A stretch of DNA of 61,025 nt from Flavobacteriales bacterium (GTDB taxonomy: Bacteria; Bacteroidota; Bacteroidia; Flavobacteriales; Schleiferiaceae): the NCBI GenBank assembly GCA_007693635.1, contig REDE01000070.1, positions 1 to 61,025 on the forward strand. The letters are read 5' to 3'. The translations under genes were made by a program, and so were the position numbers. The notes under the pieces were generated by a model, which ran no database searches, was not told the origin of the DNA, and saw only the letters and a list, made by a program, of their open reading frames with translations. Position 1 is the first letter of the stretch. Every line of letters begins with the position of its first letter. Shown in pieces: positions 41,288-43,472 of this stretch.

Positions 41288-41328
41288 TAAAAAAAAGAAT
41301 CCCGCCAACCAAAAGGTCGACGGGATTG
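41288..41328 (-). terminator. Terminator of the eRF1-like gene
   Basis: 13-pair stem AATCCCGTCGACC / GGTTGGCGGGATT (two G-U pairs) with a TTTT loop and a following run of T, 5 bases after the stop. It ends at the start of the DUF456 gene. Confidence 0.88.
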
Positions 41329-41332
41329 TAAA

Positions 41333-42400
41333 TTAATAGCGCAGAATTGCGGTTAAAGGTTGGTCAAAGTTGGTTTCACCATTTACGATGAAGTCAACCA
41401 TACCTCCATTGAGAAGCGTTTGTTCGGCAATTTCGTCGATCACATCATCGTAATCACCGGGTTGTTCAGGTTTTTCCAGAAGCTGAATGTTCCCTTCGTA
41501 AATTCGTGCTGCCTGACGGTAATCTTTCTGTGCAACCAGGTGGGAAACCCTTCCTTGTCGAGCAAGCTTGTACACATCAGATACAATCGATGAAATTTTT
41601 TCGGGTGAAATTCCACTGCGAAGAGCATTCAAGCGTTCAATTTTTTGCTCTTTCATCGATTTGCCAACTTCGGCCCATATTTCGTTAAGCCAGGTTGAGG
41701 CATTATTAGCGGAGCGCGACCCATCGAGCTGTGCAATAACGTTGTGACTAAAGCGGGTCTTCTTCATGTAATAGTCGCGGATACGACGCACACCGACCAA
41801 TACAATGGGCAAGGGTTCTTGTCGCATGACTTTCTCAAGTGCTTCATCAACTTCACGGAAAAACTCTTCGGTGTAGCGATCCTCCGTATCGGAAAAACTT
41901 TTTTCTAGGGTATTGGCCGCTATTCTTGGGTTTTCCATTGGGAACCCATCTATTTCGGCATTTTCCCCAAAACGATCTTCACTGGCCTCGAATATGTCTA
42001 CCTTTTCCTTGGATAGTGTAAGCACGTAATAGCGAAGACTCTTGCTTATACCTACGATGATGTCTCTGGTGGCAAAGTTTTTATCCAACACAACACGGTT
42101 GGGCAAATCAAATGGAAAGCGCTTGATCATTCCCACGCGCTCACCTAAGAAAATACCTAAGCCGTCGAGATTGTTTTGATGATCGATAAGATGAATGAAA
42201 CTATCGAATCGCTTTAACCATTGCTCTGAGGTTTTTTTATCCATTTCATTTGATAGACGTTCGGCAAGCTCATTGCGTAGGTTTTTTAGTAAAATGGGGT
42301 CTTGCGTAACACCGGGAGCTGTTCGGTGTGTTTTCATGGTTACTGTGATACTTGGATACGAAGCATTGCGAATTAAATCGTCGACGAAATGGATTTTCAT
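41333..42400 (-). CDS. Bacterial eRF1/Pelota-like protein (baeRF; Balon-like ribosome factor)
   Basis: 355 residues. The C-terminal third carries the eRF1/Pelota domain 3 signature: EQTLLNGGMVDFIVNG ending in LTAILRY. The middle region (LPIVLVGVRRIRDYYMKKT...NVIAQLDGS) fits domain 2. The N-terminal about 150 residues are a bacterial version of domain 1 (GIFLGERVGMIKRFPFDLPNRV split, ISKSLRYYVLTLSKEKVDIFEA). No GGQ peptide-release motif is present. This agrees with the bacterial archaeo-eukaryotic release-factor-like family to which Balon, a cold-shock ribosome hibernation factor of Psychrobacter, belongs. Cytoplasmic ribosome binding in stress is inferred; catalysis of release is unlikely. 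Single gene with its own terminator. Confidence 0.78.
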   Translation of the reverse strand: MKIHFVDDLIRNASYPSITVTMKTHRTAPGVTQDPILLKNLRNELAERLSNEMDKKTSEQWLKRFDSFIHLIDHQNNLDGLGIFLGERVGMIKRFPFDLPNRVVLDKNFATRDIIVGISKSLRYYVLTLSKEKVDIFEASEDRFGENAEIDGFPMENPRIAANTLEKSFSDTEDRYTEEFFREVDEALEKVMRQEPLPIVLVGVRRIRDYYMKKTRFSHNVIAQLDGSRSANNASTWLNEIWAEVGKSMKEQKIERLNALRSGISPEKISSIVSDVYKLARQGRVSHLVAQKDYRQAARIYEGNIQLLEKPEQPGDYDDVIDEIAEQTLLNGGMVDFIVNGETNFDQPLTAILRY

Positions 42401-42527: not shown

Positions 42528-43472
42528 CTATTTTAGCATAAAATGTTGTGAAGCTGCGAGAATTTCGCGAAATTTCCAATGGACTATTTGATTTTCATCA
42601 CTCATACGCATTCCTCCTTGGTGATAAATCTCATTGGTGAGTCGGAAAATTTTAAGACTTCCTTCCCGAATTATGGTTTGTAATTGGGGTATATCATCCA
42701 CGAAATCGCCTTTTAATAATGTGTCCCAAACCTTATCGGCTTCTCGGAAAATTCTAAATTCCCAATCATCAAGATGTGTTTTTAGTTTTTCCGATGCTTC
42801 GTTGACCTGTGCACTCTCGAGCAAAGATCGGCCTAATCCCGCAAAGGCTATTCCCATGCAAAAGCGAGCAAAAGGCATAAACCCGAGTCGGTGAATTTCG
42901 TAGGCGTACGGATTTGCAATTTCTCCGATTTTAAAGGAGCAAATTCCGGGGATATTTTCACCCGCGATGCCGAAGGAGGAGGTGGGGCGGAAGGCGAAAA
43001 CATCCCATTCTTCATGGATTTTTACTTCGGTAGCGGCTACGACGTAACTTGCTAGATCATCATTTTCATCTATGGCGTTGACTGTAAAATGGGTGGCGTG
43101 GGCACTACCTGTACATTTATCCCATTCACCACTTAACTTTATAATGCCATTTTCATTCTTAGAGGTGCCTCCGATTTTACCACTGCCCGCCAATGCCGCT
43201 TGCGGGGTGCTGAAAATTTCTCGAGCTGCCTCCGTAGGAAAAAAGCCGGAAAAATATCCAGCACCAGCTCCTAAATTGACGCACCAACCGGCACTGCCAA
43301 ATTCTTTGCTGTAATCGTGAATGACTTTCAAGCCTTGGGCTAAACTCCATTGTAAGCCCCCAAATTCATTGGGGACAAATCCAAAAAACACTTTTTCATC
43401 GTGCATTTTTTGCAGCAAATGAAAAGGTAGCTGATTTGTCTTGTAATCAGCGGCGGTGTATTCAGAAGTCAT
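42528..43472 (-). CDS. Acyl-CoA dehydrogenase-like flavoprotein
   Basis: 314 residues, short for the family (usually 370-400). It shows an acyl-CoA dehydrogenase/HsaA-like layout: an N-terminal helical part with FFGFVPNEFGGLQ, KEFGSAGWCVNLGAG, a middle beta domain (IIKLSGEWDKCTGSAHATHF), and a C-terminal helical bundle ending GGMRMSDENQIVHWKFREI. The C-terminal part resembles flavin-dependent monooxygenases of the HpaB/DszC type as much as dehydrogenases. The catalytic glutamate cannot be placed. It follows kdsA by 10 bases, so shares its transcript, without an obvious metabolic link. Confidence 0.7.
   Translation of the reverse strand: MTSEYTAADYKTNQLPFHLLQKMHDEKVFFGFVPNEFGGLQWSLAQGLKVIHDYSKEFGSAGWCVNLGAGAGYFSGFFPTEAAREIFSTPQAALAGSGKIGGTSKNENGIIKLSGEWDKCTGSAHATHFTVNAIDENDDLASYVVAATEVKIHEEWDVFAFRPTSSFGIAGENIPGICSFKIGEIANPYAYEIHRLGFMPFARFCMGIAFAGLGRSLLESAQVNEASEKLKTHLDDWEFRIFREADKVWDTLLKGDFVDDIPQLQTIIREGSLKIFRLTNEIYHQGGMRMSDENQIVHWKFREILAASQHFMLK

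Follow-up and report, generated by a model that had tools for sequence, protein, structure and literature searches.

Balon, a ribosome hibernation factor, was reported in 2024 in Psychrobacter and mycobacteria. In that work (PMC10901736), Balon of Psychrobacter urativorans and its mycobacterial relatives MSMEG_1130 and Rv2629 were all observed in the ribosomal A site. According to the same paper, Balon occupies the A site independently of mRNA, in ribosomes that are vacant or translating, leaves the peptidyl-transferase centre inert and is bound to EF-Tu-GDP. The structural elements described there are a bL27 trap, a lasso loop and an EF-Tu beta-hairpin.

We analysed a 61,025-nucleotide stretch of DNA (the window) from a Flavobacteriales genome of 2.56 Mb in 190 contigs (92% complete). 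The window encodes a Balon-family protein, here called balon at the gene level (Table 1). The ORF is real and correctly placed, and its coding status beyond chance follows from a full-length match to a curated profile, presence throughout the genus and a dN far below dS. Each of the five genomes of the genus keeps it, at 67-72% identity and with an identical length of 355 aa. In the sole congener pair with an unsaturated dS, dN is 0.034 against a dS of 1.28. The gene is thus under purifying selection and conserved genus-wide. The regions upstream of balon in the congeners do not align, so we propose no promoter.

Table 1. Features at the balon locus, with positions in the window.
Feature	Position	Strand	Basis
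Balon-family (baeRF family 3) gene, 355 aa	41333..42400	-	ATG at 42400, stop ending 41333; matches to NF052287, PDB 8rd8 and PF18845
Presumed HP-motif region of the N-domain, codons 25-34 (HRTAPGVTQD), aligned with Balon HREHPANDQD	42299..42328	-	alignment
Domain-2 loop in place of GGQ, codons 153-175 (FPMENPRIAANTLEKSFSDTEDR)	41876..41944	-	alignment with Balon
Intrinsic terminator between balon and DUF456, stem-loop and T8	41298..41327	-	13-bp stem, 4-nt loop
DUF456 (PF04306) small membrane protein, 170 aa	40774..41286	-	PF04306, E 9.8e-31

The closest profile is the NCBIfam model for Balon itself (NF052287, named after AOC03_06830), which matches residues 9-355 over model positions 4-361 with an e-value of 1.9e-87. 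The score of 294.1 bits falls below the equivalog cut-off of 330, and we therefore file the protein in the wider Balon family and not as an NCBIfam equivalog. Three congeners scanned with the same model scored 278-314 bits. A phmmer search of the PDB gave a single convincing match, to the Balon chain 8rd8_B (e-value 9.2e-42, residues 12-355, 30% identity). In Pfam the best match is baeRF_family3 (PF18845; e-value 4.1e-27, 96 bits against a gathering score of 31.5), a middle-domain match above the curated cut-off with no decisive difference from that family. The baeRF families 7, 8, 11 and 6 also match, with e-values from 8.5e-8 to 1.3e-5. A profile built from 29 members of the family finds Balon at 3.6e-96, MSMEG_1130 at 1.3e-14 and Rv2629 at 0.0024. 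The preliminary description of this DNA had named Balon as the described relative and proposed a profile search as the check. Both the NF052287 and the 8rd8 matches bear out the choice of relative, and by NF052287, PF18845, the PDB and the family profile the protein falls inside the Balon/baeRF group. On these matches we regard it as a full-length homologue of the three-domain Balon, and its placement in the family as firm at the sequence level.

The other described relatives stand further off. MSMEG_1130 and Rv2629 belong to a common family with the window protein by profile and likewise lack GGQ, but they are far more distant from it than Balon is, and neither of the mycobacterial models (NF052288 and NF052289) matched it at an e-value of 1 or below. 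To aRF1/eRF1 and Pelota/Dom34 there is a distant superfamily relation. The family profile reaches L7Ae/aRF1 domain-3 chains at sub-significant e-values of 0.07-0.08 over its C-terminal part, as expected of an eRF1 domain 3. Unlike those proteins, the window protein has no GGQ, no NIKS motif within its 355 aa and no eRF1 or Pelota domain among its Pfam matches. An AlphaFold2 model made from two sequences (the window protein and L002) had a pLDDT of 36.6, too low for fold comparison.

The protein shares with Balon a full-length alignment, the domain order, the absence of GGQ, the proline of the HP motif and a substitute domain-2 loop of similar length, and it differs in the sequence of that loop and in the histidine of the HP motif. 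Balon has only one HP dipeptide in the aligned part of its chain, His27-Pro28, and for that reason we take it as the presumed HP motif of the decoding centre. In the window protein the site reads Ala-Pro, the proline being kept and the histidine replaced. Across 41 rows of the family, proline is found at this site in 30 and histidine in 6. Histidine is therefore not family-defining in this sample, and its loss does not exclude the Balon mechanism.

The catalytic GGQ of release factors belongs to domain 2. The decisive site is thus the domain-2 loop and not the GGM at residues 332-334, which belongs to the domain-3 region close to the C-terminus. The loop contains no glutamine in the alignment, either here or in the rest of the five genus members, and is close to invariant across the genus. 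The C-terminal signature reported earlier was located as stated (GGMVDF at residues 332-337, LTAILRY at the protein end), and GGQ is indeed absent from the 355-aa sequence. One congener has a chance GGQ at the position of the domain-3 GGM, so the letters GGQ, present or absent, are not diagnostic alone. With neither GGQ nor any glutamine in its domain-2 loop, the protein is unlikely to carry out peptide release. The GGQ in domain 2 that marks a catalytic class 1 release factor (aRF1/eRF1) was not found.

The protein had been put forward as a good candidate for a hibernation or rescue factor in this phylum. A Balon relative there is common rather than remarkable, with family matches in 56 of 198 sampled genomes of Bacteroidota. 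Within the host family the gene occurs in every one of the five genus members, whereas of 18 other genera sampled only two have it. One of these two matches, L038 (G217:C64), has an in-frame TAG, covers model positions 1-265 only and is possibly a decaying copy. Most of the phylum matches included in our tree fall on a separate branch, in which the domain-2 loop is longer. In this commoner branch (L015, L017, L019 and related loci) the loop often carries an HGHGG- or HGQGG-like stretch, which may merit a look for catalytic potential. The window protein lies on the Balon side of a well-supported split (100/100); its grouping with the Balon rows is weakly supported (81/70), and the branch leading to the genus is long, at 1.19 changes per column. 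A DNA pattern of the genus-type N-domain motif, run against 395 genomes of the phylum, matched this one alone; thus, it is the genus type that is rare and not the family. Phage carriage was considered and dropped, as no relative appeared in a viral-contig scan or in a phage tblastn. Plasmid-borne relatives do occur (Moraxella, Kovacikia, actinobacteria and others), at 22-30% identity, and are uninformative on this locus.

The gene had been described as a single-gene unit that has a strong terminator. That terminator is confirmed (-22.2 kcal/mol, z -6.9), but it sits between balon and a DUF456 gene and is a feature of this genome only, with no counterpart in the four congeners. In evolutionary terms the single-gene unit does not hold, because DUF456 is linked downstream of balon in each of the five genus members, its start overlapping the balon stop in three. 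In the window, DUF456 begins 46 bases past the balon stop on the same strand. In G198, G199 and G201 the stop and start overlap as TAATG, which suggests a co-translated pair, and in G200 the gap is about 185 bases. That gap (L041:5985-6169) folds at -44.8 kcal/mol, better than its shuffles (z -3.8). The remaining neighbours fall into three arrangements (that of the window, that of G200 and that of G198/G199/G201), and by tblastn the balon-DUF456 pair is the only part common to them. Because G198, G199 and G201 group as a clade in the protein tree (100/99), the overlap may be an ancestral state or one that arose inside this clade; in both cases the linkage itself is kept in five of five genomes. 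The two genes are probably co-expressed in some species of the genus. DUF456 does not depend on Balon, since it is common in related genomes without Balon (DUF456 in 26 of 45, Balon in 7 of 60). We found DUF456 beside no other fetched family member outside the genus, where most loci span only 1.5 kb on each side.

The gene very probably encodes a non-catalytic, A-site-binding hibernation factor of the Balon type. Action like that of Balon is expected from the homology. Under starvation or stress, and going by the Balon structures, the protein would enter the ribosomal A site, where its N-domain would contact the decoding centre without reading the mRNA. The middle domain would lie beside the peptidyl-transferase centre and leave the nascent chain unhydrolysed, and the C-domain would touch EF-Tu-GDP. 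Vacant or paused ribosomes would in this way be held idle and protected until growth returns. The protein probably acts alongside a separate HPF protein, as the genome has one HPF/S30AE gene, on a different contig from balon. Against the Balon reading are the sub-cut-off equivalog score, the weak tree grouping, the long genus branch and the replaced histidine. Nor does balon adjoin RaiA/HPF, Hsp20 or another published stress gene here; its neighbour is DUF456, whereas those listed for Balon are RaiA/HPF or other stress genes.

The preliminary description had left the choice between hibernation and rescue open. Its candidate role is supported, and hibernation is favoured because no characterised relative is closer than Balon and because neither GGQ nor glutamine occurs in the domain-2 loop. 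A Pelota/Dom34-like rescue factor would bind the A site of stalled ribosomes and aid their splitting or recycling without peptide hydrolysis. Dom34 shares the superfamily and also lacks a catalytic glutamine, and non-catalytic rescue has been raised as an alternative for baeRF proteins (PMC6514570). However, among close relatives only Balon, MSMEG_1130 and Rv2629 have been characterised structurally, and they are seen to occupy the A site stably while the peptidyl-transferase centre is inert (PMC10901736). With no Hbs1-like or other rescue gene nearby either, we consider a rescue role unlikely. A peptidyl-hydrolysing release factor, with an unusual loop doing the work of GGQ, is scarcely credible: a few baeRF families do retain a catalytic glutamine (PMC6514570), but none of the five genus members has one in this loop, and it is the non-catalytic Balon that the protein matches best.

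The protein might instead be a diverged Balon homologue that now has a membrane-linked stress role with DUF456, ribosome hibernation being no longer its main job. The long genus branch, the sub-cut-off score and the altered HP motif are all in keeping with this, as is the genus-wide linkage to DUF456 with its overlap in three genomes. Yet the alignment to Balon is full-length, and THRxxP...QD, FATRD and the C-terminal GG...F...RY are preserved. Moreover, a single NF052287 copy was found in the source genome (92% complete), which leaves no second Balon for the ancestral role. We judge such a change of role quite improbable, and a Balon-type hibernation factor remains our preferred reading.

A further reading, also rather improbable, is that Balon and DUF456 form a functional pair in the genus that ties hibernation to a membrane event (e.g., metal or envelope stress), the terminator setting their relative expression in the window species. 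Among relatives of DUF456 we found one that has been studied, the membrane protein YqgC of Bacillus subtilis. It has no known function, and its gene is co-transcribed with sodA; cells without both yqgC and sodA are manganese-sensitive (PMC10888875). The neighbours listed in the Balon paper do not include DUF456, and our literature search found no paper joining DUF456 and hibernation. It also found none naming Balon, ribosome hibernation and Bacteroidota together. The window protein is unexceptional within a family that was described only recently, and the gene fits the published picture of Balon as widespread. The Balon-DUF456 linkage is the only detail for which we found no prior report, and being genus-wide it offers a concrete gene pair for probing whether hibernation is connected with a membrane protein.

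Directly before balon, and following a kdsA-like (DAHP synthetase family) gene, positions 42528-43472 encode a 314-aa protein. Its only match, to the acyl-CoA dehydrogenase N-terminal domain, stays below threshold (16.3 bits, with 22.9 required).
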